Shown here piece by piece: positions 6,048 to 25,995 of a stretch of DNA of 64,000 nt. Made by a program: the position numbers and the translations under genes. Origin of the DNA: Klebsiella sp. BIGb0138 (GTDB lineage: Bacteria > Pseudomonadota > Gammaproteobacteria > Enterobacterales > Enterobacteriaceae). Every line of letters starts with the position of its first letter. The stretch's first letter is position 1. The stretch lies in NCBI RefSeq assembly GCF_004342285.1, contig NZ_SMCV01000002.1, positions 310,001 to 374,000 on the forward strand, read 5' to 3'. A model generated the notes under the pieces. It saw only the letters and a list, made by a program, of their open reading frames with translations, searched no databases and had not been told where the DNA came from.

Positions 6048-6055
6048 ACTAACCT

Positions 6056-6084
6056 CTTCGCGGTGTATCCTCTACACCGCGAAG
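6056..6084. terminator. Convergent stem-loop between ATPase and receptor genes
   Basis: A perfect 12-bp stem, CTTCGCGGTGTA / TACACCGCGAAG, with a 5-nt loop, lies in the 46-bp gap between two convergent genes. It could stop transcription from both sides. U-tracts are weak. Confidence 0.7.
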
Positions 6085-6093
6085 GCTAACGCT

Positions 6094-8241
6094 TTAAAAT
6101 GCCAGAGACGCCTGCACAAAGAACGTTCTCGGTTCGCCGACATATTTCCCGTAGTTATTATCTGTCGAGCGCGTGTAGTAACGCTGATCGAAAAGGTTTT
6201 TGACACCGGCGCCCAGCTTCAGATTTGACCATGCAGGTCCCATGTCATATTCACCGCGCATATTCCACACCATATAGCCCGCGATATCACCGTACTGGCC
6301 GTCATCGCTCTCCTGCGTGATATAACCATTCCCGGCATCGGATGATCCTGGAGAATGCTGGCGAGATTGTGAATAGCCATCAACGTTCCAGACCCAGTTG
6401 CCCGTCGCATAGCGGGAGCCCACCGTCAGTACCTGACGGGAATAGAATGGCAGATCTTTACCCGAAAACTCTCCGCTGACGGATACGGCGCGGGTATAGG
6501 TATAGGTCGTGTAGACACTCAGGCCGTCCAGACTATTGGCTAACTCGCTGAGATCATAGTTCAGGGCCAGCTCAACGCCTTCATGCTTAGTGGCGCCTAA
6601 CGTGGTCCAGCCAATGGTATTGTTGATGTACTGCAGCTGATTATCAAAATCAATGTAGAAGGCGGTCAGCTCAGCTTTGAATAATGAATCGTCATAGCGG
6701 GTACCCACTTCATAGGTACGGGCCTTTTCAGGCTGTAGACCTGGAGCCGGCTGCCCATGATTGCCACCGCGCGTCAGCTGAAAATACTGTAAACTCCCGA
6801 AAGAGGTATTGGCATTCGCAAATAGTTTCCAGCTATCAGACAGGTGATACATCACGTTGACTGAGGGCAAAGGTTCGCTGTACGATTTTTCTCGGGCAAT
6901 ATCGGCAAAAGAATCATTCACATGCGTACGGATACTTTCATAGCGCAGCCCTGGCGTGATCGTCCAGTTCCCCACGTTTATCGCATCATCAATATAAAAC
7001 GCATTGGCCGCGGTACCGCCCGAGGTATGCTGATAATAATTGGCTTTGGAATTCGGCGCTGAGGTGGTGGTTGCCGGATCGTACCAGTCAGATCGATACC
7101 CTTTTTCATCCGATGTCTCATTCAGGTAACGATAGCCAAGGGTGACCTCATGAGCCATATCCCAAAACCGGAACAAATGAGAATAAGTAGGCTCGATGGC
7201 CCAGGTGGTGTAGTGACGCGGGGCTGCCGCCAGGCGACTCTGTCCTTCCTGCGCCCCGGTGCCATCGGTCTGAATATCGCTGGTCCGGAAACTTTTGGTG
7301 AAATAGGTCAGCACTTCAAACTGGCTATCCTCTTCCTGATGGCGATATTTGAAAGACATATCCTGACGGCGACCCGCAAACTGATCGAACGGCCGAACAG
7401 ACTGGAAGGGATTTTGCTGGTACTGCTCTTTCGTCAGACCGCCTGGCATACCTGCTGCGGCATTATAATAATGAAAGTTACCGGTCAGTTCGTCCTTAGG
7501 GGTGAAACGATAACGCGTTTTCAGCATAAAATCGTCAATATCGGTATTGTCATTGCTTTCTCTGTATCCCTGCCCGTGCAGACCAGAATAAAGCAACTCG
7601 GCCCCCAGACCATTCTCCGCCGTTCCACCAACGGAAGCGCTGGTCAACGTTTTTAACCCACCGTGGGACGCCCCTTCCGTTTGCGCGCTCACCGCGCCGC
7701 CGAACGCCTCCGGGATATCCTTCGAGACAAAGTTAATCACTCCGCCGACGTTCTGCGGTCCATAGCGGACGGCGCTACCACCACGAATAACATCAATGGA
7801 TTGAATGTTTCCCATTGAGAGGGGAGCCATTGACAGCTGAGGTTGGCCATAAGGGGCAACAGAGAGCGGCACGCCGTCCATCATGATCGTTGAGCGAGGA
7901 GAAAGACGCGAGGTCAGTCCGCGAACGCCAACGTTCAATGACACATCGCTACCGCCGGTCCCGTTATTCTCCTGAACCTGTACGCCAGGAATACCGCGTA
8001 GTGCTTCAGAAATCGTCTCTCCGCCTTTTTCCTTTACCTGCTGCTCCGTCACAATGGTTCTGGCACCAGCATGATCGAGAACAATAGTGTCGTAATCCGG
8101 CGAATCAAGCCAGTTACCCACAACCGTCAGTGTATCCGTACGATCGGTTGATGAAGCGTTATCATTTTTATCAGCAGCCCAGGTCGGTAGCGCTAAAACA
8201 ATAGCAGTCGCAAGCAACGAGTGCCGGAAGTGACCAGACAT
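6094..8241 (-). CDS. TonB-dependent outer-membrane receptor, FecA-like
   Basis: A 715-residue outer-membrane receptor importing an iron chelate. It has a signal peptide (MSGHFRHSLLATAIVLALPTWA), a TonB-box-like DTLTVVG, a plug domain (about residues 50-180, with DVIRGGSAVRYGPQNVGGVI) and a 22-strand barrel ending in a terminal Phe. The closest relative I recall is E. coli FecA: shared stretches include LTVVG, RSTIMMDGVP, APYGQPQLS and LRYE-type barrel turns. Unlike FecA, it begins with the plug and lacks the N-terminal STN signalling domain, and no fecI/fecR genes are nearby, so Fur alone probably controls it. The start at 8241 is chosen for AGGGG upstream and the signal peptide. Ligand: ferric citrate or a similar small carboxylate siderophore is a guess. 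Confidence 0.88.
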   Translation of the reverse strand: MSGHFRHSLLATAIVLALPTWAADKNDNASSTDRTDTLTVVGNWLDSPDYDTIVLDHAGARTIVTEQQVKEKGGETISEALRGIPGVQVQENNGTGGSDVSLNVGVRGLTSRLSPRSTIMMDGVPLSVAPYGQPQLSMAPLSMGNIQSIDVIRGGSAVRYGPQNVGGVINFVSKDIPEAFGGAVSAQTEGASHGGLKTLTSASVGGTAENGLGAELLYSGLHGQGYRESNDNTDIDDFMLKTRYRFTPKDELTGNFHYYNAAAGMPGGLTKEQYQQNPFQSVRPFDQFAGRRQDMSFKYRHQEEDSQFEVLTYFTKSFRTSDIQTDGTGAQEGQSRLAAAPRHYTTWAIEPTYSHLFRFWDMAHEVTLGYRYLNETSDEKGYRSDWYDPATTTSAPNSKANYYQHTSGGTAANAFYIDDAINVGNWTITPGLRYESIRTHVNDSFADIAREKSYSEPLPSVNVMYHLSDSWKLFANANTSFGSLQYFQLTRGGNHGQPAPGLQPEKARTYEVGTRYDDSLFKAELTAFYIDFDNQLQYINNTIGWTTLGATKHEGVELALNYDLSELANSLDGLSVYTTYTYTRAVSVSGEFSGKDLPFYSRQVLTVGSRYATGNWVWNVDGYSQSRQHSPGSSDAGNGYITQESDDGQYGDIAGYMVWNMRGEYDMGPAWSNLKLGAGVKNLFDQRYYTRSTDNNYGKYVGEPRTFFVQASLAF

Positions 8242-8307
8242 CAAGAAGATCCCCTGTAAAAGAACACAATTTGAATTATGAACGATTTGCATTATGAGAA
8301 ACGGAAT

Positions 8308-8322
8308 GATAATAGTTAGCAA
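8308..8322. promoter_or_regulatory. Putative Fur box
   Basis: TGATAATAGTTAGCA matches 12 of 14 positions of the Fur 7-1-7 consensus (TGATAAT-N-ATTATCA). It lies between the divergent receptor and binding-protein genes, so one site could repress both under iron-replete conditions. Confidence 0.65.
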
Positions 8323-8423
8323 TACATAGAAATGTAAACTAATTTTTAAGAACCGAATGTTGTTTTACACCCCAGACAACCAGGCTGGGCTGTCTCACGG
8401 CTACGGGTATACGGATTAAGAAA

Positions 8424-9554
8424 ATGAGACAGCAATTTTTGTGGCGTAGGGTATTAGGTTGTCTGCTTTTACTGTCGGCTGCGAACCTGCAGGCATCTCC
8501 GGTCACGGTGACCGATATTGCCGGGCGGGAGGTCACACTTCAGCAGCCGGCAAAAAGGGTGATTCTGGCGGACGCCCGGGCGATTCAGGCGTTACAGATT
8601 GTGCATCCGCAGAATCCGTTTGCTCAGCTTATTGCCTGGGATAACACCCTCAAAACCAAAGCGCCGGACTTGTACTCACTTTATCTGGCAAAATACCCCC
8701 AGCTAAAACAGCTGCCGATGCTCGAAAATGCGTATCTCACTGATTTTAGTGTTGAACGCGCCGCTCAGATGCATCCCGATCTGATCATTTTCGACTTTGG
8801 CGTAGTGAGTAAACTAAAAGAAAGCCGCGTGCTGGATCAGCTTGCGGCGATAGGCATTCCGGTATTATTTATCGACTTTCGCCTACGCCCGCTCACCAAC
8901 AGCATCACCAGTATCAGGCTTCTTGGTAAAGTACTGGGTGATGAGCAGCACAGCGAAGCCTGGGCTCGTTTCTATGAAGAGCGGCTCAAGCTGATACGTC
9001 AGCGTACCGCAGGGTTAAATGAAAAAGAAAAGCCGTTAGTCTTTATTGAACGCCATGCCGGCATGACCGGCGATGAATGCTGTTTTACCTACGGTAAAGG
9101 AAGCTTCGGCGAGTTCATTGCGACTGCTGGCGGTATTAACGTCGGCAGCGCATTGTTTGCCGGGAAAAACGGTACCATGAGCCTGGAGCAGCTTATTACT
9201 TCAAACCCATCCTACTACATCATGACGGGCGCAGACTGGAGTAGTAATTTCCAACAAAGTATCGGTATTCCTCTGGGCTATGATGCTGATACGAAAGTAA
9301 CTGAACAGCGATTGGATCACCTGATCAAACGCACAGGAATAGAAACGCTTGATGCGATGCAAAATAAACGGGTGCTGGCGATTTATCATCAGTACTACGA
9401 TAGTCCCTTGAATATCATGGCTGTTGAAGTTATTGCAAAATTCCTGCACCCGGCCTTATTTGCAGATCTGGATCCGGAAACAGATATTGAGAATATTCAT
9501 AAGAACGTATTGAATTTCCCTTATTCCGGCACATTCTGGCTCCAGGCCAAATAG
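8424..9554 (+). CDS. Periplasmic iron-chelate-binding protein
   Basis: A 376-residue class III substrate-binding protein (BtuF/FepB fold, Peripla_BP_2). A Sec signal peptide is visible (MRQQFLWRRVLGCLLLLSAANLQA). The mature protein opens with VTVTDIAGREVTL and AKRVILADARAIQAL, the usual first lobe. PDLIIFDFG and IPVLFIDF mark the first domain, and a long linker helix precedes the second lobe. It is divergent from the receptor gene over a shared promoter region with a Fur-like box. It probably hands the chelate to the permease-ATPase encoded at 4159-6047, the only such transporter nearby. Confidence 0.88.
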   Translation: MRQQFLWRRVLGCLLLLSAANLQASPVTVTDIAGREVTLQQPAKRVILADARAIQALQIVHPQNPFAQLIAWDNTLKTKAPDLYSLYLAKYPQLKQLPMLENAYLTDFSVERAAQMHPDLIIFDFGVVSKLKESRVLDQLAAIGIPVLFIDFRLRPLTNSITSIRLLGKVLGDEQHSEAWARFYEERLKLIRQRTAGLNEKEKPLVFIERHAGMTGDECCFTYGKGSFGEFIATAGGINVGSALFAGKNGTMSLEQLITSNPSYYIMTGADWSSNFQQSIGIPLGYDADTKVTEQRLDHLIKRTGIETLDAMQNKRVLAIYHQYYDSPLNIMAVEVIAKFLHPALFADLDPETDIENIHKNVLNFPYSGTFWLQAK

Positions 9555-9765: not shown

Positions 9766-11429
9766 CTATTTCTTCGTCACATCTTGCATATCGAATGCCT
9801 TCACAACCTGTGCCGCCGCGGCGAAGTCCGGGCTGAGCGGGTGGTCGCTATCCATAAATTTCACCTGGCGTCTGAGCGCATCGTATAACACGCTGGTCGG
9901 CTGCGACATGGTGAAACCGTTTTTCTTCTGCTTACGCAAATCAATCGCCTGTGCGTCATGGACCAGTAAAATGCCCAAAAGCTGATAGCTGTTATCGATT
10001 TGTCTCTGCAGACGCTGCGCGACCTCTGGTGCATTCGTCGCGATGTCTTCAATATCGCCCGCAACCGGCATGTAATCCAGCGATACCGGCATCGCCAACG
10101 CTTTATTGCGCATCGCCAGCGACATCACCGGTTTTTCCATCGCCCCAAAGGCATGAACGGTATTCTCCGTACCGAGAAAACGTGTAAGCCCGGTAAATGA
10201 TGGATTATTTAGTTTTACGACCTGCTGAGCATTGGCCAACGAGTTGTGGGCCAGCGCCAGGCTGAGCTGTTCGAAGGAGATAACCCATGGCAAGGGCTCA
10301 AAGTTGGCGGTTGGCAATACGGCACCTTTCACCCCATCTTGATCCACATAGCCCAGACGATCCTGCGGGCGGTCCGATGGCGCGGCAACGTCGATAGCGA
10401 CACCGGGGTTGTCATCCGAACTATTGAGCTGTATCAGTAGCTGGTCATAGGCCAGCTGATAGCTGCGCTGTAGTTCGGCAAGTAAATAGACACCGGAACG
10501 GAAGCTCAGCGGGTCCTGCAACGGACGGCTGTCGTCATGTTCCCACAAGCTGGAGCCCGCCAGCAGGGTGCGCAGGTGTTGACCCATCGCCACCACTTCA
10601 GGGTAGGAACGCAAGGCCAGAGTATTTCAAGGAAAGGAGAAACGTTACCGTTCAACGCTTCAAGGCTGGTGGCATAAATCAAGGAATTAAGGGGCAGCAG
10701 ATGAGCCAGGGAATTCAGCGCCAGCGCGGCGCTGGCCGCAGAATACGCATTCGAACTTAAAATGGCTAATGCGTCTTTGGCATAAGGGACAACAACCGAC
10801 GTTTTGCTATGGTCCAGTGCGAGTTGTGCCGGAACTTTTTTCCCCTGATAGTACACGTCGCCTTCGCCTATCATCGCCAGGCCGATATGGCTGATAACCG
10901 TAATGTCCCCCTCGCCGATTGAACCATCACACGGGATAAGCGGCGTGATGCCCTTATTGAGAAAGCTGACATAGGCGTCGATGACTTCAGGCTGCACGCC
11001 ACCGCCGCCGGTTAACAAGGTATTTAAGCGGGTAACCATTGTCGCACGAGCCGCACGCTGGCTCATTGGTTCACCGATGCCCCCCGAATGGGCGTGCAGC
11101 AAGCCAATATTAAATTTCTTTGACGCCGCGATCACTTCATCGGTCAGTTTACCGTGGACATCGACCATCGGACGGTCTTTATTCAAACCGACGCCCACCG
11201 TCAGGCCATATATTTTTTGTCCATTCTGCGCCGCTGCAATCAGCACCTGATGCGCTTTTTTTACCCGGTCGGTAGCGGCTGGAGAAATAGCGACCGTTTC
11301 GCCATCCGCCACGCTGGCAATAATGGCTGGCGTGATGGTGTGTCCATCGAGAGTGACGGTAGACCTGCTCAGCTGGCTGTAGCTCAGCGTGAGCAAGGCA
11401 ATCATCGAAAGGGAGAACTTTGCTGGCAT
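9766..11429 (-). pseudogene. Ergothionase (HAL-fold, MIO-less), frameshifted
   Basis: Two adjoining minus-strand frames together give one histidine-ammonia-lyase-like protein of about 554 residues. The first frame (from 11429) is good to about 10626. The homology continues in another frame from about 10620 to 9766. The combined span is 1664 nt, one base short of a multiple of three, so a single base is missing (or two added). The N-terminus is an apparent signal peptide of about 22 residues before the enzyme fold. Where canonical lyases have GSVG-ASG-D, whose Ala-Ser-Gly makes the MIO cofactor, this protein reads GSIG-EG-D (residues 169-175). It therefore cannot form MIO. Ergothionase, which releases trimethylamine from ergothioneine, is the known MIO-less member, and the neighbours fit it. 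The gene is last of four in its unit, 81 nt after the transporter. Either the strain has lost it or the base is a sequencing error. Confidence 0.75.
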
Positions 11430-11510
11430 AGAGAAAACCCTCTTATTATTGGTGATGCTGTATGAGTCAGGAAATGGATTAATTACTATTTTTATATTTA
11501 TATCGGTTGG

Positions 11511-12848
11511 TTAATCTTTTCCTCTGGCCTTCTGACGCTCAATCCTGACTAAAGCAATCATCGCCAGAATACTGGCAATCATGACGTACCACGCCGGGGC
11601 GAACCGCGTTCCGATGTTTTCGGTCAGCCAGGTCAGCACTGCCGGAGCAAAGCCGCCAAAGAGGGTCACCGCAAGGTTGTAAGAAACCGACATCCCGCTG
11701 GCGCGAACATCGGTGGGGAAAAGTTCAGACAGCGCCAGAGGAGCCACGCCAACGAACAGCGATACCAGGATACAGAACAGGCTTTGCACCAGAATCAGCG
11801 TCCCGGTGGTATGCGAAGCATCAAGCAACAGCAGCAGTGGATAGCTGCAGATGAGCAACAAGCCGGCCCCCACCATCAGTAACTTATGCGAGCCGATACG
11901 ATCGGAATAGCTGCCTGCGACAACACAGCCCACCACCATAAAGCAGTTACCAATCAGCGCCGCGAGGAAGGCCTGGTGGCTCTCAAAATGCAGCTGACGT
12001 TGGACATAAATCGGCATGAAGATGATCAACGAGTAGACGCTAACGGCCCACAGAACAGACAGACCGGTACCGAGTAATACCGCGTTGCTGTGCGTTTTAA
12101 ACAGCTGTAGCAGCGGCATCACCGGTTGGATCTTCTCTGCCTGACGGCGGGCCTGTTCTTGAACAAATAGCGGCGTCTCCTCCAGCGTTTTACGCATCCA
12201 CAAACCAATTGGCGCGATAGACAGACCGATAATAAACGGTATGCGCCAGCCCCAATCGCCAATCTGTTCATGGCTGAGGGTCAACGTCACCACGGTGGCG
12301 ACCAGCGCGCCAAAGATGTTGGAGATCCCCATGCTGGCCTGTAGCCAGGAGGCATACTGTCCCTTCTTTTCGGCCGGAGCATGCTCGACCAAAAAGGCCG
12401 CCGCGCCGCCCACTTCCCCTCCAGCGGAGAAGCCTTGCAATACCCGGCCACACAGAATCAACAGCGGTGCGCCAATGCCAATGGCGCTATAGGGTGGCGC
12501 AAACGCAATGATGGCGGTTCCCACGGCCATCGTCATAATTGTCAGCGTCAGCGCGGCTTTGCGCCCTACCCGATCGCCATAGACCCCGATAGCCAGCGCC
12601 CCCAGAGGACGGATCACAAAACCGAGCCCAAACGCTAAAAAGGCTTCGAACAACTGCGCCCCGGCATCGGCTTGATGAAAGAAGTTCTGCGCGATGTAGA
12701 CGGCAAAAAAGGCATAGATGGAAAAGTCGTACCATTCCAGCGCATTACCGATTGATGCAGCCGCAATCGCTTTATAGCCCTTATTGCGTTGTCCCGGTAC
12801 GGACTGACACACCCGAGCGGTCAAGGGAGAAATCGTGCTTTTTGTCAT
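11511..12848 (-). CDS. MFS transporter, metabolite:H+ symporter (MHS/ProP-ShiA type)
   Basis: A 445-residue, 12-TM inner-membrane symporter. MHS-family marks are ASIGNALEWYDFSIYAFFAV at the first helix, GDRVGRKAALTLTI in loop 2-3, and GGEVGGAAAFLVEHAP in helix 5. Relatives carry betaines (ProP), shikimate and dicarboxylates. It sits 19 nt after the hydratase and before the ergothionase, and the ATG follows GAGG, so it is probably the importer for the pathway. If the ergothionase is periplasmic, the cargo could be thiourocanate; otherwise ergothioneine, itself a betaine. Cargo is inferred from context only. Confidence 0.82.
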   Translation of the reverse strand: MTKSTISPLTARVCQSVPGQRNKGYKAIAAASIGNALEWYDFSIYAFFAVYIAQNFFHQADAGAQLFEAFLAFGLGFVIRPLGALAIGVYGDRVGRKAALTLTIMTMAVGTAIIAFAPPYSAIGIGAPLLILCGRVLQGFSAGGEVGGAAAFLVEHAPAEKKGQYASWLQASMGISNIFGALVATVVTLTLSHEQIGDWGWRIPFIIGLSIAPIGLWMRKTLEETPLFVQEQARRQAEKIQPVMPLLQLFKTHSNAVLLGTGLSVLWAVSVYSLIIFMPIYVQRQLHFESHQAFLAALIGNCFMVVGCVVAGSYSDRIGSHKLLMVGAGLLLICSYPLLLLLDASHTTGTLILVQSLFCILVSLFVGVAPLALSELFPTDVRASGMSVSYNLAVTLFGGFAPAVLTWLTENIGTRFAPAWYVMIASILAMIALVRIERQKARGKD

Positions 12849-12867
12849 AATGACCTCATACGCAAGG

Positions 12868-14520
12868 CTAGATGGCCGACGATAAATTAATATAAGGAAT
12901 TGATTTTTCTTTTATTTCATCCAGAGATTCCTGATATCCCGCATCGGCATAGCGCATCACGCCGGTACTGGTATCATTGGTCATGGCGAGCTGCAGGCGC
13001 TGGGCCGCGGCATCTGAGCCATCGGCCACCACCGTCACTCCGGAGCTGGTCATATAACCGCTATATCCACCGCCGCCGGAATGAATAGCCACCAGATCCG
13101 CCATTGAGGCGCAATTCACCAGAGCATTGAGTAGCGGCCAGTCGGCGATGGCATCTGAGCCATCTTTCATCTTTTCAGTCATAATGTTGGGATGGGCCAT
13201 TGCCCCCGCATCCAGATGGTCACGGGTGAAGGCAATCGGCCCACTCAGACGGCCATCGGCAACCATGCGGTTCACCTCCAGCGCCAGTTCCGTTCGCTCG
13301 CCATGGCCAAGCCATGCGATTCGCGCGGGTAAACCTTCGAACGGCACTTTCTCACGGGCCAGACGGATCCAGTTGCTGACAATTTTGTTATTGGCAAAAC
13401 GATCTAATAAATAGTTATCGATGAGCCTGATGTCATCGCTGTTATTGGACAAGGCGATCCAGCGGAATGGTCCGATAGCGCGGCAGAACAGCGGGCGCAG
13501 GAAGGCCTCGGTAAAAATGGGGATCTCAAAGGCGCGTTCGACGCCGCCTTGATGGGCGTGGGTGCGGATAAGATTGCCGTTATCAAACACCACGGCGCCT
13601 TTATCCATAAACCCCAGCATGGCGGTGACATGCTGGACGATCGAACGACGGCTGGCATCCATCAACACATCAATATCGTTCTCCCGCTGGGCGGCAGCCT
13701 GTTCCGGCGAGTAACCTGAAGGCACATAGCCGTACACTAAATCATGGGCAGCGGTCTGGTCGGTGACGATATCGGGGATGATACCTTTCGCCAAAATAGC
13801 AGGATAAACATCGGCAGCGTTGGCAAGCAAACCGACTGAAATGGGTTGGCGATCGTGCTGCGCATTGCGAATGAGCGTCAGCGCATGTTCAAGGTCCTGC
13901 GCCTGATACTGCAGAAAGCCGTTTTTCAAGCGCTTGTCGATACTCTTTTGGTTGACCTCTACCGTGAGAATAGCCGCTCTGGCCATGGTACCTGCCAACG
14001 GTTGAGCCCCGCCCATCCCCCCCAGACCGGCGGTAAGGATAAAGCGCCCGGCCAGGTCATTATCAAAGTGCCGTTCCGCAATGCGTGAGAAAATCTCATA
14101 GGTACCCTGAATGACGCCTTGTGAACCGATGTATTGCCAGTCGCCGGCGGTTAAGCCCCCCCAACAGATCAGATTGGCCTTTTCCCAACGATAAAAATTG
14201 TCCGCTTTGGCCCACTGACCGACCATGTTGCAATTGGCCATAATAACCAGCGGTGCGTTGACATGGGTTTGCAGGAGGCCGATCGGCTTGCCGGACTGGA
14301 CCAGCAGCGTTTGATCTTCACGCATGGTTTGCAGCGCTTGCACAATCGCATCGTGTGAAGGCCAGTCGCGCGCGGCGCGGCCTAATGCGGCATAGACCAC
14401 CAGTTCGTCAGGTTTTTCCCCGACGGCCAGTACATTTTCCAGCAAACGGAGCAAGGCTTCCTGGCGCCAGCCTAAGCAGCGCAGCTGATTACCCGAAGTC
14501 ACGCTGAAGGTCCTGGTCAT
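12868..14520 (-). CDS. Thiourocanate hydratase (urocanate hydratase family)
   Basis: A 550-residue NAD+-dependent hydratase of the HutU family, expected to convert thiourocanate to the thiohydantoin 3-(5-oxo-2-thioxoimidazolidin-4-yl)propionate. Family landmarks remain: GGLTAGDWQYIGSQGVIQGT, GLGGMGGAQPLAG, RDHLDAG and KDGSDAIADWPLLNAL. Two regions conserved in true urocanate hydratases are altered: LPARICW reads LPARIAW (Ala402), and the HHGGGVGxGxSxHxG loop reads HSGGGGYSGYMTSSG (residues 480-494). No hutI, hutG or hutC gene is present. These changes and the DUF917 partner favour the thio-substrate. Its ATG overlaps the stop of the desulfurase gene (ATGA), showing coupled translation. Confidence 0.78.
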   Translation of the reverse strand: MTRTFSVTSGNQLRCLGWRQEALLRLLENVLAVGEKPDELVVYAALGRAARDWPSHDAIVQALQTMREDQTLLVQSGKPIGLLQTHVNAPLVIMANCNMVGQWAKADNFYRWEKANLICWGGLTAGDWQYIGSQGVIQGTYEIFSRIAERHFDNDLAGRFILTAGLGGMGGAQPLAGTMARAAILTVEVNQKSIDKRLKNGFLQYQAQDLEHALTLIRNAQHDRQPISVGLLANAADVYPAILAKGIIPDIVTDQTAAHDLVYGYVPSGYSPEQAAAQRENDIDVLMDASRRSIVQHVTAMLGFMDKGAVVFDNGNLIRTHAHQGGVERAFEIPIFTEAFLRPLFCRAIGPFRWIALSNNSDDIRLIDNYLLDRFANNKIVSNWIRLAREKVPFEGLPARIAWLGHGERTELALEVNRMVADGRLSGPIAFTRDHLDAGAMAHPNIMTEKMKDGSDAIADWPLLNALVNCASMADLVAIHSGGGGYSGYMTSSGVTVVADGSDAAAQRLQLAMTNDTSTGVMRYADAGYQESLDEIKEKSIPYINLSSAI

Positions 14521-15617
14521 TTTAGGGCTCCTTGCTGAATATGGCTGAACAATTCGATACCCAAAACCTTCTCGACGGGCGGATAAACCGCAGGATCGGT
14601 AACCGATGAAGAGAGCGGGATCTGGCTATGGTGCTGGTGAAAAATCACAATTTCGAGGCCCGGTTTAAGCTGCCCTGCGCTGACAGGGTTGCCCTGCATA
14701 TCCAGGGTGGTAATGATGTCGGGATAGGTGGCAATGCGCTGGCCATGGCTGTCCTCCACCGCCATATGCTCATTCATGACATGTATGCGACGCAGGTTTT
14801 CTCCCTGACCCACGTCGATAATGCCGACGTCAAAAGCCTCATCGGTATATTGCAGGGTGGTTTGCGTCACTTTACCGCTACCGATGATCTGCCCCCCGGT
14901 GTGGTTGCAAATTGCATCGATCGTCGCGCTGCCGCCCTTTTTACTGGCGGAGATAATGGTTTCACCAAGAGAGAGGGCCAGGCTGATACCGCCGTGTGCG
15001 GCATGCTGGCGCACATAAGAACCACGGATCGGATTACGGCAGCTGGCGATAAAGCCACCGGACATATCCGAGGCTTTACGCAATATGGGGGAGACTTTGG
15101 CGGTCGCGCCTTTGACGACGAGCTCAATATAGGCATGACGCTTGCGGTTGCCGCCAACGGCCGCCTGAATCATGGGTTGTGTGCTGGAAGCAAGGCCTAA
15201 TGACCCCATATCGCCAGTAGGATGGGCGCGCAGGTCCCCCACCGCATCGACCACTTTAGTACCGAGAATAGCGGACGGTAGCCAGCCGTTTAGCGTACTG
15301 GACATCCCGTTTTGCCCGATAATCAGCCCATAAATGGGCTCCCCCAGCTCTTTTTGTACCAGCTGGACGGCTTTAACATAGTCGACACCGAGCATTTCCC
15401 AGTCGGTCAGCCCCCCAGGCGCACCAATGGCTGCGGCGGTGGCAATCCAGGCACTGTCGGCAACCTCTTCCATCGTGACCAGCTCAGGACGACCAATGGT
15501 GACGGCCATTTTGCCCAACTCCAGCCCATGTTCGACCCAACCGCCGCCGCCACAGGCAAACACTGACCCACCCTTCACCGCGGCTTCGACATCAGCCAGC
15601 GTTAAAATTCGACCCAT
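14517..15617 (-). CDS. DUF917 thiohydantoin desulfurase
   Basis: A 366-residue cytoplasmic protein of the DUF917 family, now linked to (S-methyl) thiohydantoin desulfuration. In ergothioneine breakdown this step removes sulfur as H2S from the thiohydantoin, giving hydantoin-5-propionate. Visible features are the N-terminal SVFACGGGGWVEHG (about residues 16-29), GAPGG, DMGSLGLASS and a C-terminal HQHHSQIPL. The start is the ATG at 15617, behind a strong GGAGGAATAGCA. A longer in-frame extension to 15659 lacks one. It is first in the minus-strand unit, followed by hydratase, transporter and ergothionase. The promoter lies in 15618-15845 with a candidate LysR site. Confidence 0.78.
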   Translation of the reverse strand: MGRILTLADVEAAVKGGSVFACGGGGWVEHGLELGKMAVTIGRPELVTMEEVADSAWIATAAAIGAPGGLTDWEMLGVDYVKAVQLVQKELGEPIYGLIIGQNGMSSTLNGWLPSAILGTKVVDAVGDLRAHPTGDMGSLGLASSTQPMIQAAVGGNRKRHAYIELVVKGATAKVSPILRKASDMSGGFIASCRNPIRGSYVRQHAAHGGISLALSLGETIISASKKGGSATIDAICNHTGGQIIGSGKVTQTTLQYTDEAFDVGIIDVGQGENLRRIHVMNEHMAVEDSHGQRIATYPDIITTLDMQGNPVSAGQLKPGLEIVIFHQHHSQIPLSSSVTDPAVYPPVEKVLGIELFSHIQQGALK

Positions 15618-15750
15618 TGCTATTCCTCCAGAAGTACAGAACCAGTAATCCGGCCTCAAAGTGCATAATTAATGAATAATCATTGCGGCCTTTGTTCGAT
15701 ACTAGAGGGCACCTGGTCAAAATGTCATATTACTTTTTGGCCACGGCGTA

Positions 15751-15763
15751 TAACAAAATGTTA
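15751..15763. promoter_or_regulatory. Candidate LysR-regulator operator, site 1
   Basis: TAACAAAATGTTA is a 13-bp near-perfect palindrome with the T-N11-A form of LysR boxes, 134 bp upstream of the DUF917 start. It differs at one base from a site at 16760-16772 beside the LysR gene. A GCATAA hexamer at 15663-15668 also recurs (inverted or direct) at 16770, 16791 and 16877. Confidence 0.6.
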
Positions 15764-15845
15764 ACGGTCGAAAAATTCAAAGCCGTTGTGCTTGACCAGA
15801 AAAGATGTGAAACAACGCTAAAGTGTGAGGGGGATAAAAAACAGG

Positions 15846-16742
15846 CTATCTCGACCAGTGCACCTGAATAGATTCCAGGGTGGTGATAAATTCCTGAGCT
15901 AATCGTGAAAGCGGTTCATACATCCCGTGGATGATGCTAATGGGCGTTTTAGCCGTGGGTGAAATGGGACGAAAGACGACGTTTGTCCATACCGGGCCGC
16001 TGGCGGTAATTTCATCAATCAAGGCGATGCCGACCCCCGCCTGAACCAAAGCACAAGCCACGTGAATCTGCTGTGATTCAACGATGGGACGTACAACAAT
16101 ACCTTCATTATTAAAGAGTTGGCGGACAATCTGGCCAATGGGGATATCTGAGCCATAGCCAATAAACGGTTGGCCAACCAAATCCTCCACATTGATAATG
16201 TTTTTTGCCGTAAGCGGATGAGTAGCCGGGAGCGCCACCACTAAATGATTCTCATACAGCACCCGGGACTGCACGTTCGGATGACCTTCATGCAGAAAGG
16301 CAATCCCTAATTCCACCTGCTGGGTCAGGACTGCCTGAAGTAAAACATCGGGGATCATGGTATGCAAAATCACCCTGGCGTCCGGCAGCGTTCGGTGAAA
16401 TTTGGCAATGGCATTGGGAATTAAACCCTGCCCAAGGCTCGGGCTACAGGCAATCCTCAGATGCCCCATCCGGTTTTGAATCAGATCTTCTGCAACTTCA
16501 TTGACCCGCTGCACGCCGAGATAGACCGAGTTGACCTCGATAAACAGATGCCGCGCTTCCGGAGTGGGATAAAGCCGTCCTTTTATGCGTTCAAACAGCG
16601 ATAACCCCAGACGCTGTTCGGTATAGCTGATTAAGCGCGAAACCGCCGGCTGAGAAACATGTAATAGTTTTGCCGCGCCGCTGATTGAACCCGTCAACAT
16701 AATGGCGCGAAAGACTTCAATTTGTTTGAGATTTAAGCGCAT
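15846..16742 (-). CDS. LysR-family regulator of the ergothioneine cluster
   Basis: A 298-residue LysR-type regulator with the N-terminal helix-turn-helix (FRAIMLTGSISGAAKLLHVSQ, then SRLISYTEQRLGLSLFER) and a standard effector domain. The ASKLL-type helix and PTPEARHLF linker resemble the NAC/Cbl-like and GcvA-unlike subgroup that controls amino-acid catabolism. It lies between the two halves of the cluster and is divergent from the hydantoinase gene. Near-identical T-N11-A palindromes occur just upstream of it and upstream of the DUF917 gene, so it likely controls both units and itself. The inducer may be ergothioneine or thiourocanate (inference). Confidence 0.88.
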   Translation of the reverse strand: MRLNLKQIEVFRAIMLTGSISGAAKLLHVSQPAVSRLISYTEQRLGLSLFERIKGRLYPTPEARHLFIEVNSVYLGVQRVNEVAEDLIQNRMGHLRIACSPSLGQGLIPNAIAKFHRTLPDARVILHTMIPDVLLQAVLTQQVELGIAFLHEGHPNVQSRVLYENHLVVALPATHPLTAKNIINVEDLVGQPFIGYGSDIPIGQIVRQLFNNEGIVVRPIVESQQIHVACALVQAGVGIALIDEITASGPVWTNVVFRPISPTAKTPISIIHGMYEPLSRLAQEFITTLESIQVHWSR

Positions 16743-16759
16743 TGCACCCTCAATAAAGT

Positions 16760-16772
16760 TAACACAATGTTA
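16760..16772. promoter_or_regulatory. Candidate LysR-regulator operator, site 2
   Basis: TAACACAATGTTA, one mismatch from site 1 at 15751. It starts 18 bp upstream of the LysR start codon and lies about 147 bp before the hydantoinase start, a position suited to autorepression and divergent activation. An adjoining dyad TTATGC-N15-GCATAA (16770-16796) may be a second recognition element. Confidence 0.6.
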
Positions 16773-16918
16773 TGCATGAGTGATAAATAAGCATAAGACA
16801 TAATACATACAGCCACCCTACACTAGACGCAGACTTTGGAAAAGGGCCCGACTACTCATCGGTCACATATGCATTTTTATGCAAAATTTTCGCTAAAAGT
16901 TATAAGGGAGCGTTGGTC

Positions 16919-18286
16919 ATGGCTGTGCAGAAAAAATGGGACATCGTGGTAAAGGGAAACCTGGTCGATGCCGACAGCATCACGCCTGATGGCTGGATAG
17001 CTATCGACGAGGGGAAAATTATCGCCACCGGCAGCGGCCAGCCGCCGCAGGCAGAGAGAACCATCGACGCCAGCGGCAAATGGGTCATCCCCGGCGTGAT
17101 CGATGGGCAGGTACACTCAGGCAGCCAGGCCAATCAGGAGGGACTCGGCCGGGCCTCACGCGCAGCCGCAGCGGGAGGGGTGACGGTGATGGTGGATATG
17201 CCTTACGACGACCCTGAGCCCGTTGCCAGTCGCCGCCTGCTGGACAATAAAATTGCTGAAATTGAACGCGACTGCCATGTAGACGTAGCGCTATTCGGTA
17301 CGCTCAACCACAAGCAGGGTTTTGACGCAGCGGCAGGGTTGATTGAAGGCGGCGTCTGCGCGTTTAAATTCTCGACTTTCGAGGCGATGCCCGGCCGCTT
17401 CCCTCGGGTTGAGGAAGACGACCTGCAGTATGCATTTCAGCTGATCGCCCCAAGCGGTTTAGCCTGCGCGGTACACAACCAGATGCAGGAAATGACGCGC
17501 AAAAATATCCAACGCATGATGGCGGAAAACAATACCGGCTGGGACGCATTCATGCGTGCTCACACTCCCCTGATCGAAAACCTGGCGACCGCGCAGCTGT
17601 ATGAAATTGGCGCGGTAACTGGCGCCCGCGCGCATGCGGTTCACGTTTCGACCTCGCGCGGATTTGAGATTTATAAAATGTACAAAAATGCCGGCTATCC
17701 GGTCTCTATCGAAACCTGCGTTCAGTATCTGATGCTTAACCATGAAGAACACACTTTAAGGCTAGGGGCAAAAACCAAACATTACCCCCCTATTCGGCCA
17801 AAATCCGAGTCCGAACGATTATGGGTCCATATTGCGCAAGGGGATTGTACATTTGTCTCTTCTGACCACGTCAGCTGGGGACTGGAGCGTAAAAGCGATG
17901 CGAATATTTTCAAAAACGCCTCCGGCGGACCGGGACTGGAAACGTTATTACCTGCGCTGTGGACCGGATGTGAGCAGCGCGGGATTTCGCCCACCACGGT
18001 TGTTCAGCTGTTGTGTCGCAATCCGGCGCAACACTTCCTGCTGGATGACCGTAAGGGGTCATTTGCTACCGGGAAGGATGCCGATTTCGTCATTCTGAAT
18101 CCTGAAAGCTATCGTTTCGATCCCTCTGGCAGCCTGTCGGCGGTGACCTGGAGCTCATTCGCCGGCATGGCGTTTACCGTGCGCATTGAACAGACATGGT
18201 GCCGCGGTATGCAGGTCTTTCACCACGGCAAAATCGTCAATCAGGCCGGCGATGGCCAGTTCCTCCGCCCACGCCGGGTCGCCTAA
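16919..18286 (+). CDS. Hydantoinase (dihydropyrimidinase/allantoinase family)
   Basis: A 455-residue cyclic amidohydrolase (TIM-barrel, binuclear metal), expected to open hydantoin-5-propionate to N-carbamoyl-glutamate. The barrel metal sites can be followed: the first motif, normally DxHxH, reads IDGQVH (Gln64, His66); the bridging carboxylated lysine is in CAFKFS; a histidine is in AVHNQ (where relatives have HAE); further ligands are in AVHVST and SSDHVSW. The C-terminal half returns to the small beta domain (KGSFATGKDADFVILNP). It has a good ribosome site (AGGGAG, 8 nt). The amidohydrolase gene follows by 13 nt. The first-His-to-Gln change is unusual and may reflect a one-metal or altered site. 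Confidence 0.82.
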   Translation: MAVQKKWDIVVKGNLVDADSITPDGWIAIDEGKIIATGSGQPPQAERTIDASGKWVIPGVIDGQVHSGSQANQEGLGRASRAAAAGGVTVMVDMPYDDPEPVASRRLLDNKIAEIERDCHVDVALFGTLNHKQGFDAAAGLIEGGVCAFKFSTFEAMPGRFPRVEEDDLQYAFQLIAPSGLACAVHNQMQEMTRKNIQRMMAENNTGWDAFMRAHTPLIENLATAQLYEIGAVTGARAHAVHVSTSRGFEIYKMYKNAGYPVSIETCVQYLMLNHEEHTLRLGAKTKHYPPIRPKSESERLWVHIAQGDCTFVSSDHVSWGLERKSDANIFKNASGGPGLETLLPALWTGCEQRGISPTTVVQLLCRNPAQHFLLDDRKGSFATGKDADFVILNPESYRFDPSGSLSAVTWSSFAGMAFTVRIEQTWCRGMQVFHHGKIVNQAGDGQFLRPRRVA

Positions 18287-18299
18287 AGAAGAGAACATC

Positions 18300-19583
18300 A
18301 TGACAACACCACACCATGAAATCGTCCACGATCGCGATCTCATTAATTCCGCCCGCCTGTGGACCAACGCCAATACGTTAGCAACCATTACGCTACCGAA
18401 TGTGCCATGGACCCGCCGGGCCTTTACGCCGTTATTCAGCGAAGGCCGCCAGTGGTTAAAGCTCAAAATGGAGCAAGCTGGCCTGAGCGTCGCTCTTGAT
18501 GCGGGGGGTAACCTGATCGGTCGCCGGGCCGGGCGACGCCCTGACCTGCCACCGCTGGTAATCGGTTCTCATAGTGATACCGTGGTTGGCGGCGGACGTT
18601 ATGATGGCATTATCGGTGTCCTGGCCGGCATCGAGATCGCATTCAGCCTCCAGGAACGGGGGATACAGCTTGAACATCCGCTGGAAGTGATCGATTTCTT
18701 GTCGGAAGAGCCGAGTGATTACGGTATTTCCTGCGTTGGCAGCCGAGCTTTTTCCGGATCGCTCGATAGCGGCATGCTAGCATCTAAAAACCATGCCGGA
18801 GAAACGTTGGCGGAGGCGATGGTACGGGTTGGCGCGAAACCCGAGCTATTAACGGCGCCGATACGTACCTCAGGCAGCACGGCGGCATATATTGAACTGC
18901 ACATTGAGCAAGGTCCGGTACTGGAAAACGCGGACCTACCCATTGGCGTAGTGACGCATATCGTGGGGATCCGCCGCGTGCGGATACTGGTGCACGGCCA
19001 GCCGGACCATTCCGGCACCACGCCGATGGATGTACGCCGGGATGCTTTAGTCGGCGCCGCACAGGTGATAACTCTGGTACATCAGGCGGCTAGCGCCCGA
19101 AGCGGCAACCCGCACTACGTCGTGGCAACGATTGGCCGTATCGCGATGACTCCGAACGCGCCCAACGCGGTTCCCGGCTGGGTTGAACTGATGCTTGAAG
19201 TCCGCAGCGACAGCCAGCAGGTTCTGGACACTTTCCCTGAAGACATCATGCAAATGGGTGAATCATCGCTGGCAAGCCTGGGTCTATCCGCCACGCTGGA
19301 GCATGTGAGCCGCGCCAGCCCGACGCCTTGCTCCGATATCGTGATGCAGGCGATAGCAGAAGCCGCGGGCCGTTTACAGCTCGCGTATCGACATCTGCCA
19401 AGCGGTGCAGGCCACGACGCCGTCTATGTTGCGCCGACGGGTCCGGTAGGGATGGTCTTTATCCCGTGCCTGGCCGGGCGAAGTCATTGCCCGGAAGAAT
19501 CGATTACCGAACAACAGCTGGCGAATGGCGCAGCGGTCGTCGCGCAAACTCTGATGAATCTGGATCGTCGCCTGGCAGGCTAA
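18300..19583 (+). CDS. N-carbamoyl-L-amino-acid hydrolase (M20 family)
   Basis: A 427-residue metal-dependent amidohydrolase of the M20 branch that includes beta-ureidopropionase, allantoate amidohydrolase and N-carbamoyl-amino-acid hydrolases. In this cluster it should release glutamate, CO2 and ammonia from N-carbamoyl-L-glutamate. Motifs: GSHSDTVVGGGRYDG (His91, Asp93 metal ligands), DFLSEEPS (Glu pair), LHIEQGP (from His201), DHSGTTPM and SGAGHDA in the dimerisation and second metal region. The start is the ATG at 18300 after AGAAGAG, 13 nt past the hydantoinase stop. A longer in-frame extension into that gene is unlikely. Confidence 0.85.
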   Translation: MTTPHHEIVHDRDLINSARLWTNANTLATITLPNVPWTRRAFTPLFSEGRQWLKLKMEQAGLSVALDAGGNLIGRRAGRRPDLPPLVIGSHSDTVVGGGRYDGIIGVLAGIEIAFSLQERGIQLEHPLEVIDFLSEEPSDYGISCVGSRAFSGSLDSGMLASKNHAGETLAEAMVRVGAKPELLTAPIRTSGSTAAYIELHIEQGPVLENADLPIGVVTHIVGIRRVRILVHGQPDHSGTTPMDVRRDALVGAAQVITLVHQAASARSGNPHYVVATIGRIAMTPNAPNAVPGWVELMLEVRSDSQQVLDTFPEDIMQMGESSLASLGLSATLEHVSRASPTPCSDIVMQAIAEAAGRLQLAYRHLPSGAGHDAVYVAPTGPVGMVFIPCLAGRSHCPEESITEQQLANGAAVVAQTLMNLDRRLAG

Positions 19584-19627: not shown

Positions 19628-19787
19628 TATTATTCATGATGATCCATCGGCACAGCGAGGTATCTGGCGATATCCTGACTTTGCGCCGGTTTTGCTGGCA
19701 TCTCCTGACCTTATCCCCCCTTGCCTGTAGATTGCGGCCGCTGACAAATTTATACTTGGCGCACAATTTTAACCCTAAGGCCTGGAC

Positions 19788-21029
19788 ATGAAGTTCTCTT
19801 CCCCACTAAACAAACGCGGCGTAACGCCGGCTAAAGCGATGGTCGCCGCGATCAGCGGTTATGCAATGGATGGCTTTGATCTGCTGATCCTGGGTTTCAT
19901 GCTGCCCGCCATCAGCGCTTCACTGGCGCTCAGCGCCTCTCAGGCAGGTTCCCTCGTCACCTGGACGCTGGTTGGCGCGGTACTGGGCGGGATTTTTTTC
20001 GGCCATCTCAGCGATCGCCTGGGGCGTATTCGCGTCCTGACCTTCACGATTCTGATGTTCTCGGTCTTTACCGGCCTCTGTGCGGTCGCGCAGGGCTACT
20101 GGGATCTGCTGGCCTATCGTACCCTTGCCGGGATGGGGTTAGGCGGTGAGTTCGGCATCGGTATGGCGTTGATTGCCGAAGTCTGGCCCGCCAGTAAACG
20201 CAATCGCGCCTCGGCATGGGTCGGCATCGGCTGGCAGCTTGGCGTGCTGCTTGCCGCTTTTATCACCCCTCTTCTGCTGGATATCATCGGCTGGCGCGGG
20301 ATGTTCCTGGTCGGGCTGCTGCCCGCTCTGGTCTCATTTGCCATTCGCCGCGGCATGGGGGAACCCGACGCGTTTACCAAAGATATCGCGGTCACCCAGG
20401 AGGTCTCCTTCGCGACCCGTCTCAGGATGCTGTTCGCCGACCGCACTACCTCGAAGGCCAGTATCGGGATCCTCATTCTGTGTTCGGTGCAGAATTTTGG
20501 CTACTACGGCCTGATGATCTGGATGCCCAGCTATCTGTCCTCCAGTTTTGGCTTTTCTCTCACCAAATCCGGGCTCTGGACAGCGGTCACCGTGGTGGGA
20601 ATGACCTTCGGCATCTGGCTGTTTGGCGTGCTGGCGGATCGCTTCTCGCGCTGGAAAATCTTCCTGATTTATCAGGTGGGCGCCGTGGTGATGGTGATTA
20701 TCTACGCTCAGCTGCGCGATCCGACCATCATGCTGTTTACCGGGGCGGTTATGGGGATGTTTGTGAACGGGATGATCGGCGGTTACGGGGCGCTGATCTC
20801 GGATACCTATCCGCTCAAAGTGCGCGCTACTGCGCAAAACGTCCTGTTTAACCTGGGGCGCGGCGTCGGCGGCTTTGGCCCGCTGGTGATTGGGCTGTTC
20901 GTCAGCCACTGGTCCTTTAGCGCGGCCATCACGCTGCTGGCCCTGCTGTACCTGCTGGATATTTTCGCCACCCTGTTCCTGCTGCCGAAAAAACAGGGCA
21001 GCGAAGATGCGCTGGGGGCGATAGGCTAA
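19788..21029 (+). CDS. MFS transporter (aromatic acid/sialate-like H+ symporter)
   Basis: A 413-residue, 12-TM inner-membrane carrier. The first helix carries SGYAMDGFDLLILGFMLP, typical of the AAHS/NanT-like group. Loop 2-3 has GHLSDRLGRIR, and helix 5 has GEFGIGMALIAEVWP. Relatives take up aromatic or sugar acids. It lies after a terminator and has GC-rich codon use like the conserved genes downstream, so it may belong to the core rather than the catabolic cluster. The AUG follows AAGGCC about 6 nt upstream. Substrate unknown. Confidence 0.85.
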   Translation: MKFSSPLNKRGVTPAKAMVAAISGYAMDGFDLLILGFMLPAISASLALSASQAGSLVTWTLVGAVLGGIFFGHLSDRLGRIRVLTFTILMFSVFTGLCAVAQGYWDLLAYRTLAGMGLGGEFGIGMALIAEVWPASKRNRASAWVGIGWQLGVLLAAFITPLLLDIIGWRGMFLVGLLPALVSFAIRRGMGEPDAFTKDIAVTQEVSFATRLRMLFADRTTSKASIGILILCSVQNFGYYGLMIWMPSYLSSSFGFSLTKSGLWTAVTVVGMTFGIWLFGVLADRFSRWKIFLIYQVGAVVMVIIYAQLRDPTIMLFTGAVMGMFVNGMIGGYGALISDTYPLKVRATAQNVLFNLGRGVGGFGPLVIGLFVSHWSFSAAITLLALLYLLDIFATLFLLPKKQGSEDALGAIG

Positions 21030-21075
21030 CGGGGGTTATCGCTTCGAAGCCGGCGTTCCCGCCGCGTCAAAATAA

Positions 21076-21101
21076 CAAAGCCCGGGGTTTCCCGGGCTTT
21101 G
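21076..21101. terminator. Bidirectional terminator
   Basis: CAAAGCCCGGG-gttt-CCCGGGCTTTG, a perfect 11-bp stem with A/T-rich flanks on both sides, between the convergent MFS and phoH genes. Confidence 0.85.
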
Positions 21102-21116
21102 CACAACAGATAACGG

Positions 21117-21905
21117 TTAGTAGTAGGCTTTCAGCGTTCGCTGGCAGAGCATCGAACGGACGCAATCATCGGCGGTAAAGCGGACGATACCGACCATTTC
21201 GTCTTCCTCAAAACGCGCCAGCGCATCGACCAGGCCGGACTTCACGCCAGAGGGTAAATCACACTGGGTAATGTCGCCGTTGACGATGACCGTCACGTTC
21301 TCCCCGAGGCGGGTCAAAAACATTTTCATTTGCGCTGCCGTCACGTTCTGCGCCTCGTCCAGAATCACGACGGCATTTTCAAATGTACGTCCGCGCATAT
21401 AGGCGAACGGCGCGATTTCCACCTTGCCGATTTCCGGCCGCAGGCAGTATTGCATAAAGGAAGCGCCCAACCTCTTCACCAGCACATCATAAACCGGGCG
21501 GAAATAGGGAGCGAACTTCTCGGCGATATCTCCCGGTAAGAAGCCGAGATCTTCGTCGGCTTGCAATACGGGACGGGTAACAATAATCCTGTCCACATCC
21601 TTATGTACCAGGGCTTCGGCCGCTTTCGCCGCACTAATCCAGGTTTTCCCGCACCCGGCTTCGCCCGTAGCAAAAATCAGCTGTTTATTGTCGATGGCAT
21701 GCAAATAATGCGCCTGAGCGTCATTGCGCGCCTCAATTGGAGAAGTATCACGGCTGTCCCGCGCCATGCCAATTGCTTCTACGCCACTCATTTGCACAAG
21801 CGATGTGACCGATTCTTCTTCGCGTTGCTTATGGCTGCGCGAATCGCGTCTCAGCACACGTTTTGCCTCACGACGAGCTTTGATCACTGCTTTTTGTCTT
21901 CCCAT
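21117..21905 (-). CDS. phoH: PhoH, phosphate-starvation-inducible ATP-binding protein
   Basis: A 262-residue cytoplasmic P-loop ATPase of the PhoH family. Walker A is GEAGCGKT and Walker B is AVVILDEAQN. The N-terminus MGRQKAVIKARREAKR and most of the sequence match E. coli PhoH. The ATG at 21905 has AAGGTG 7 nt upstream. The same frame stays open to an ATG at 22184 that also has a GGAG, giving a 355-residue form close to the roughly 354-residue E. coli database length I remember. Both starts are therefore possible. It converges on the MFS gene. Exact role remains poorly defined even in E. coli; a link to RNA metabolism is proposed for the family. Confidence 0.93.
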   Translation of the reverse strand: MGRQKAVIKARREAKRVLRRDSRSHKQREEESVTSLVQMSGVEAIGMARDSRDTSPIEARNDAQAHYLHAIDNKQLIFATGEAGCGKTWISAAKAAEALVHKDVDRIIVTRPVLQADEDLGFLPGDIAEKFAPYFRPVYDVLVKRLGASFMQYCLRPEIGKVEIAPFAYMRGRTFENAVVILDEAQNVTAAQMKMFLTRLGENVTVIVNGDITQCDLPSGVKSGLVDALARFEEDEMVGIVRFTADDCVRSMLCQRTLKAYY

Positions 21906-22394
21906 GGATAGCACCTTGCGTTGTTGGTTTACATCACACGCGTCAGCATCGACGCGATTATGCGCACAAACGATTGAGGTTTGGCTTCCTTTTAAGCCAT
22001 TGCTTGCCTGTTGAATTGACAATGAGTCACGGCTACGCGCACCGCGTACCCTGTCAGGGTTCGGTTGTTCTGTGGTGGTGGAAGGAGGTGACTTTACGCT
22101 GACGAAGTCGCTGCCGGAGGTGTGTCCTCCGCGCTGAAGAGTGCGGTGTGTTGTTTTGCGTTGTCCGGTACAGGACCCTACCATTCGCGATCTCCATAGT
22201 GAAACGACATCACTGCCGGGAACTACCGCGTCTGTAATAAGTACATCAAAAAATATTCTTAATGCAACTTATTTTTTACACAAGCGCAACAAATAATTCC
22301 CCGAACAGCTGAAGAGAGTTTCCGTCATTTAGATTACAGAAAAATAACACAAGGCAGGAAATACAAAAAAAGAATGGAAAAACAGCAGAAAACG
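21906..22394 (-). promoter_or_regulatory. phoH leader/promoter region
   Basis: This stretch upstream of the short phoH start holds the promoter. The nearest 279 nt stay open in the phoH frame and encode a Ser/Arg/Thr-rich peptide, so it is either an N-terminal extension or a structured leader. A GGAGG-tgtgt-CCTCC stem is at 22116-22130. Further upstream, around 22330-22350 on the minus strand, CTGTAATCTAAATGACG weakly resembles a Pho box. Confidence 0.4.
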
Positions 22395-22414
22395 CCCTGC
22401 CCTTACGGGCAGGG
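22395..22414 (-). terminator. Terminator of efeUOB
   Basis: CCCTGCCC-ttac-GGGCAGGG stem; on the minus strand it is followed by GCGTTTTCTGCTGTTTTTTCC, a broken U-tract just past the efeB stop. Confidence 0.85.
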
Positions 22415-22418
22415 TACG

Positions 22419-23702: not shown

Positions 23703-23706
23703 CGAC

Positions 23707-24834: not shown

Positions 24835-24882
24835 GATCATCCCTTTCGGTAAGTATGTTGTAACGATGTATCCTGCGCCACC

Positions 24883-25722: not shown

Positions 25723-25779
25723 GCCGACACCCTTCAATGTGAATCGCAGTCAATGGATGCAAAGATAGGTAAATATTTC

Positions 25780-25794
25780 TGATAGTGATTATCA
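25780..25794. promoter_or_regulatory. Fur box of efeUOB
   Basis: TGATAGTGATTATCA matches 13 of 14 positions of the Fur 7-1-7 consensus and lies 58 bp before the efeU start, as expected for iron repression of this operon. Confidence 0.85.
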
Positions 25795-25995
25795 TTACAA
25801 TAATGAGAAACACAAGTGAAATGTAGAGAGAATGGTGACGAGTTGTAAATTAATCGCTGCAAAATAATTACTTATGGGATTATCTGCCTGCCGCGTCATT
25901 GAGCGGCAGCAACAACGGTTTTTTCGCCGCAGATATTTACCGGACGTAGCGGCTATGGCTAAATAGCGGCCTTATTGACCTTTGAAATGAACAAC

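Follow-up and report, generated by a model that had tools for sequence, protein, structure and literature searches.

A probable ergothioneine-degradation gene cluster with a broken ergothionase gene in Klebsiella sp. BIGb0138, and related lyases without the MIO triad in Escherichia coli and other bacteria

Background

Ergothioneine is a mushroom-derived antioxidant from which bacteria can form thiourocanate and trimethylamine, with hydration, desulfuration, ring opening and decarbamoylation then leading to glutamate. This five-step bacterial catabolism was reportedly worked out by Beliaeva, Leisinger and Seebeck in 2021. The locus analysed here lies in the 5.60-Mb genome of Klebsiella sp. BIGb0138 (assembly GCF_004342285.1), within positions 9766-19583 of a stretch of 64,000 nucleotides of contig NZ_SMCV01000002.1 (positions 310,001 to 374,000, forward strand; this whole stretch is called the window), and very probably encodes the known bacterial route from ergothioneine to glutamate, most likely gained by horizontal transfer. 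All of the enzyme families and the order of the reactions are alike in the two, while the window differs in its enteric host, its two divergent units, its MHS-type carrier and the broken frame of its lyase gene. The N-terminus of the window lyase also resembles a signal peptide, which is not so for the Paenibacillus and Cohnella lyases examined.

The clusters of this kind (here called Ert clusters) in Serratia and Pseudomonas gingeri (L006-L013) have the same gene order and divergence as the window, with 71-90% identity to its proteins; order and divergence are also shared by Ert clusters of Burkholderia (L030-L035, L037, L042, L043). In all of these the lyase gene is one open frame. Among solved structures the lyase is closest to the Treponema denticola ergothionase (6s7j, 6s7q), which has a SIGEGDI motif likewise lacking the triad that forms the 4-methylideneimidazole-5-one (MIO) group, though it lies far from the window lyase in trees. 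The window adds to the known pathway an enteric host, a site of insertion and a broken first gene. In the consulted parts of PMC13405746, a paper of 2026, ergothionase is described as limited to a few genera, BLAST having given only ammonia-lyase matches.

Identity of the encoded pathway

Enzymes were assigned by a profile search of the window proteins against NCBIfam, using the equivalog cut-offs. The four putatively cytosolic enzymes -- thiourocanate hydratase, thiohydantoin desulfurase, ErtD and ErtE -- all score over the cut-offs of their own models (Table 1), with E-values from 8e-179 to 7e-303, so that these family matches are not due to chance. In a 27-row tree of hydratases (a short search, with support from the Shimodaira-Hasegawa-like approximate likelihood-ratio test, SH-aLRT, only), the window protein stands beside those of Serratia and P. 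gingeri, inside a group of Ert hydratases that includes Paenibacillus and Cohnella, and four HutU proteins are set apart with an SH-aLRT value of 100. The best match of the lyase in the PDB is the T. denticola ergothionase (E = 3.2e-80), in an alignment beginning at chain residue 13. The original prediction, which had read the ergothioneine pathway step for step from seven contiguous genes in two divergent units, thus agrees with the coordinates and families found in the open reading frame (ORF) list and the profile matches, with the four equivalog assignments, with the lyase's nearest structure and lack of the MIO triad, and with the placing of the hydratase away from true urocanases. Its description of the cluster as apparently complete does not hold for this genome, where the first enzyme is broken and the route is therefore not complete. 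The same prediction proposed that a gut-type enteric might in this way turn a diet-derived betaine into trimethylamine and sulfide.

An ordinary histidine-utilization (hut) locus, which had also been excluded in that prediction, deserves next to no credit. Histidine ammonia-lyase (HAL) and urocanase folds are indeed common to both kinds of locus, and the hydratase passes the broad hutU cut-off (688 bits; cut-off 375), but its score on the thiourocanate hydratase model is higher and its place in the tree is away from HutU; the cluster has a desulfurase, a hydantoinase and a carbamoylase, none of its proteins matches the hutI or hutG families, its lyase lacks the MIO triad, and a true pair of hutH (721 bits; cut-off 539) and hutU (1002 bits; cut-off 375) lies about 380 kb away in the same genome. 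A route for S-methyl-ergothioneine or a related methylated thiohydantoin in place of ergothioneine is very improbable: the homologous models CH3_S_urocan and CH3_S_uro_de_S are matched by the hydratase and the desulfurase, at 743.7 and 265.5 bits, but both scores fall under the respective cut-offs (880 and 450), whereas the ergothioneine models are over theirs.

The ergothionase gene

Eight intact orthologues of 554 amino acids align without gaps to the window lyase gene in two collinear pieces that lie in different frames and meet at position 10,626. One of them, P0291, is 99.6% identical to the window lyase in both pieces; the other seven, from organisms named Raoultella and Salmonella, are 86.7-90.6% identical, and identities to Raoultella terrigena proteins are 89-91%. 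This isolate, then, presumably cannot carry out the first step, whereas its near-identical relative can.

At the position of the MIO triad, P0291 reads GSIGEGDI (the letters are identical in the N-terminal part of the window gene), as against GSVGASGDL in the genome's own HutH; with one residue fewer than HutH at the motif and no serine to form the group, the lyase is predicted to work without MIO. Among the 231 listed homologues, 230 have such a motif, one is cut short before it, and none has Ala-Ser-Gly. Of the active-site columns of HutH (numbered as in the Pseudomonas putida enzyme), the lyase has Ser for Asn195 and Leu for Tyr280, as do most rows of the alignment, and it keeps Tyr53, His83, Gln277, Arg283, Phe329 and Glu414. 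The lyase of Seinonella peptonophila (L067) carries a motif, SVGVSDL, that is unlike those of the other rows without the triad, and sits on a long branch of the tree.

Distribution and insertion of the cluster

With the desulfurase as query, a scan of one genome per species, from which genomes near the window's own may be left out, found relatives of it at 62 loci. ErtD is present in 60 of these, the hydratase and ErtE in 58 each, the MHS carrier in 52, the LysR gene in 49 and the lyase in 44; since some loci stop at a contig edge, these counts are lower bounds. The gene order of the window is common to the Serratia, P. gingeri and Burkholderia loci. The cluster is rare in the family: of 392 family genomes, 2 gave a match at 1e-60, one of them being the genome of the window. 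Among 60 relatives, one, the window's own, is over the family cut-off, and the 19 other genus genomes searched gave no match of any kind. No near match of the cluster was seen in the plasmid or E. coli collections, from which entries close to the genome of the window may be missing; 18 plasmid records have a desulfurase homologue at 1e-40, none of them enteric.

The cluster looks inserted. One congener region, L120, matches the window over 6010-9035 and 19,727-27,715 and has 315 bp in place of the window's 10,691 bp. The left edge of the missing segment falls inside a periplasmic-binding-protein gene, and the left boundary is uncertain (Table 1). In the four other regions the match is confined to the right side, beginning near 19.7 kb in L116 and L119 and near 21.07 kb in L117 and L118, so the left flank itself varies. 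Neither a tRNA nor long terminal repeats were found at the insertion, short repeats only.

Export, transport and regulation

In the intact relatives, the ergothionase would be exported to the periplasm and there take trimethylamine off ergothioneine to give thiourocanate, which the MHS carrier would import into the cytosol (or it would import ergothioneine itself). Thiourocanate hydratase and then thiohydantoin desulfurase, with release of sulfide, would follow, and ErtD and ErtE would complete the conversion to glutamate, CO2 and ammonia, with the LysR protein regulating both divergent units. Control by LysR, like the direction of the gene transfer, is presumed; so is the carrier's substrate, thiourocanate or ergothioneine.

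The proposed place of the first step comes from N-terminal sequences. A signal-peptide test that passes a protein when any of its start codons yields a plausible signal for export predicts signal-peptide-like starts for 51 of 61 lyases (a count that covers all gene contexts and includes a few near-duplicate loci); the corresponding counts are 0 of 61 for the hydratases, 4 of 63 for the desulfurases, 4 of 61 for ErtD and 1 of 59 for ErtE. P0291, the window's orthologue, passes the test, and several of the ten lyases that fail it have a hydrophobic start by eye. With export-like starts on the lyases and not on the other enzymes, we infer that trimethylamine is probably released in the periplasm and thiourocanate imported.

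Several observations weigh against these readings. The ergothionase frame is broken, so that, barring a sequencing error at the break, the route is incomplete in this genome. No ergothionase model was matched in NCBIfam, where the best matches of the lyase are histidine ammonia-lyase models far under cut-off. No lyase was found in the fetched DNA of 18 of the 62 related loci (L015, L020, L022-L024, L027, L028, L047, L049, L051-L057, L061 and L066), some of which end early, while others may have a different entry enzyme or a lyase at another location. Among the five fetched congener regions, L120 alone matches on both flanks of the cluster. The signal-peptide test, a heuristic devised for this analysis, gives false positives, and the lyases of L025 and of the Bacillota loci (L063, L064, L067) have no export-like start.

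Two further explanations concern the state of the cluster and the place of its first step. That it is a decaying, unused insertion, with the broken lyase as a sign that the lineage is losing it, is in our view rather unlikely: the frame break and the lack of a match in all 19 other genus genomes searched would fit, but the six remaining genes have open frames of full length, an intact lyase with 99.6% identity exists, and the break may be specific to the strain or a sequencing error. A cytosolic ergothionase, with ergothioneine brought in whole by the MHS carrier, is unlikely. Betaine carriers, ProP among them, belong to the MHS group (the window carrier reaches 295 bits on PRK10642, under the cut-off of 544), and the Paenibacillus, Cohnella and Seinonella lyases have no signal peptide; against this stand the export-like N-termini of most lyases and of the window's orthologue, set beside their absence from all 61 hydratases.

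Related lyases in other gene contexts

The lyase search also listed E. coli and Escherichia marmotae proteins with the motif GSIGAADI, again without the MIO triad; for two of the E. coli proteins in the list the export test is positive, and the names given to the E. coli lyase in the listed rows are HAL/PAL/TAL, aromatic amino acid ammonia-lyase and hutH. With a query back-translated from one E. coli protein, a related lyase was found in 142 of 5426 complete E. coli genomes, always on the chromosome. In the two records opened (L098 and L099), the order between sucD and cobO is hutU, an NCS1 permease gene, hutD, hutI, hutG, the lyase gene and a LysR gene, with no hutH in the cluster; hutU, hutI and hutG are over their equivalog cut-offs, and hutU is under that for thiourocanate hydratase (670 against 930 bits). 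At least 80% of this 8.9-kb stretch is matched in 141 of the 5426 genomes. Of 20 rows sampled down the ranking of 1085 matching genomes, 3 have the whole stretch and 17 its LysR end only, and in 14 of these 17 the last 130 or so bases of the lyase gene are kept, a pattern resembling the scar of a deletion. No chromosomal match to a Klebsiella-type hutH DNA query was obtained in the 5426 genomes, though a more diverged hutH would be missed. A lyase that lacks the triad and would here feed a urocanate pathway suggests use of hercynine (histidine betaine). Eleven E. coli plasmids (H108-H118) carry a gene annotated hutH that is about 68% identical over 75% of the hutH of the window's genome.

Lyases without the triad and with export-like N-termini lie beside hut genes in two other bacteria. 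That of Paracoccus saliphilus (L122, 7920-9608) is next to a hut operon with its own HutH of the Ala-Ser-Gly type, and that of Paraburkholderia sp. PGU19 (L123, 7944-9587) is next to a true hutU, with nothing found nearby by E. coli-type hutI and hutG queries. Each of the three hut-associated lyases lies in a different part of the lyase tree. The P. saliphilus enzyme stands beside Ert lyases, the Paraburkholderia enzyme inside a 23-row group of Ert and unknown-context lyases (its exact place being weakly supported), and the E. coli enzyme next to Enterococcus and the respiratory group described below, in a larger group that includes Ert lyases. (This tree, the second of the lyases, is without rows L128 and L129 and without four further rows that were long branches or outgroups.) The lyases of P. 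saliphilus and of an Ert cluster in Paracoccus denitrificans are 72% identical, which weighs against the hercynine reading: specificity may be unchanged, and the enzyme may take both betaines.

A third context appears to be respiratory. At 1e-90 the E. coli lyase was matched in 15 of the 392 family genomes; one match is the Serratia Ert lyase, one (G382) is without recognised partners, and the other 13 (L083-L095) are enterobacterial. All 13 carry, next to one another, relatives of five L086 genes, among them the lyase, a FAD_binding_2 reductase and a cytochrome c3; the remaining two L086-type genes encode a cytochrome b561-type protein and a sigma-54-activator-like protein. In L086 itself there are four CXXCH motifs in the cytochrome c3 and seven in the cytochrome b561-type protein. 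The best PDB match of the L086 reductase is the urocanate reductase UrdA (2.6e-65); counted along that alignment, Arg411 is kept, Asp388 is replaced by Gln and Tyr373 by Gly. According to the consulted part of PMC7921117, Tyr373 separates urocanate reductases from fumarate reductases. The probable electron acceptor is an acrylate of this type, with thiourocanate as a candidate. Outside the family, lyases without the triad were found at 1e-90 in 1 of 369 class genomes and in 0 of 398 phylum genomes, the phylum census having no positive control.

Taken together, these contexts may point to one family of exported betaine lyases lacking MIO, with three fates: assimilation of ergothioneine; service in hut loci, converting hercynine to urocanate and trimethylamine; and anaerobic respiration with the lyase product as acceptor, by way of the UrdA-like flavoprotein and multihaem cytochromes. 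We regard the case for this joint reading, made from sequence comparison and gene context, as evenly balanced. If it is true, an enzyme of the ergothionase clade sits in E. coli under the name of a HAL/PAL/TAL ammonia-lyase, which bears on the disputed 1962 report of an E. coli ergothionase (Wolff 1962), called questionable in the consulted parts of PMC13405746; these also state that plasma trimethylamine N-oxide is not raised by ergothioneine supplements. The apparent hidden spread of such lyases in E. coli and its relatives is the newer part of this work, set against the known pathway of the window. The enteric loci are not reported in the consulted parts of PMC13405746, PMC10882135, PMC7921117, PMC9732360 and PMC7653990, nor were they found among the open-access papers listed on ergothioneine catabolism, hercynine, E. 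coli hut genes or ergothioneine as an electron acceptor, and no open-access paper was found on ergothioneine with Raoultella. The missing MIO triad tells these enzymes from true ammonia lyases at sight, so that their enteric spread could be counted and assayed, and with it the microbial sources of trimethylamine formed from betaines in the diet.

Two further lyases were seen in passing. On pSymA of Sinorhizobium meliloti (L121/L124, 9001-10563) is a lone lyase gene, again without the triad and flanked by LysR genes; no hut or Ert partners were found near it, the nearby genes including one annotated as dimethylsulfoniopropionate lyase and an ABC transporter. In Paracoccus seriniphilus (L128, 2149-5115), an S-methyl thiourocanate hydratase (946 bits; cut-off 880) adjoins an imidazolonepropionase-family protein just at its cut-off (299 against 298) and a short lyase gene.

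Layout of the locus

The coordinates of the features are collected in Table 1. The six cluster genes other than the lyase gene are open and full length. The longest ORF of the desulfurase is 14517-15659, with a probable ATG at 15617 where the start aligns with those of homologues; that of ErtE starts at 18186.

Table 1. Features of the ergothioneine-degradation locus (window positions) and the E. coli lyase gene. Scores are in bits.
Feature	Position	Strand	Remarks
Ergothionase gene	9766-11429	-	HAL fold, no MIO triad, signal-peptide-like N-terminus; frame broken into ORFs 10506-11429 (N-terminal part) and 9766-10614 (C-terminal part)
MHS-type MFS symporter	11511-12848	-	TIGR00883, 385.7, under cut-off 443; lies between hydratase and lyase in related clusters
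Thiourocanate hydratase (urocanase family)	12868-14520	-	NF058530, 1005, cut-off 930; tree
Thiohydantoin desulfurase (DUF917/S-Me-THD)	14517-15617	-	NF058529, 594, cut-off 440; start by homologue alignment
LysR-type regulator	15846-16742	-	Family match; in 49 of 62 related loci
Intergenic region between the divergent units	16743-16912		170 bp; presumed two-way promoter
ErtD, hydantoin-5-propionate amidohydrolase (cyclic amidohydrolase)	16913-18286	+	NF058538, 663, cut-off 600; ATG 16919
ErtE, N-carbamyl-L-glutamate amidohydrolase (M20 amidase)	18300-19583	+	NF058540, 617, cut-off 520; probable ATG 18300
Segment missing in congener L120	9036-19726		Left edge uncertain: gene 8424-9554 extends beyond 9035
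E. coli CREC-544 lyase	L098, 8938-10608		No MIO triad, export-like; in hutU-NCS1-hutD-hutI-hutG cluster without hutH; second record L099

An AAHS-type transporter gene at 19788-21029 was considered as a member of the cluster and rejected. It lies in a stretch common to three of the five cluster-less congener regions (L116, L119 and L120), and its 24-29% matches in related loci overlap those of the MHS carrier, which makes it a gene of the flank. Further right, at 21122-21315 on the forward strand, is an Rfam match to the Yersinia small RNA Ysr251 (158.8 bits), antisense to the end of a phoH-like gene.

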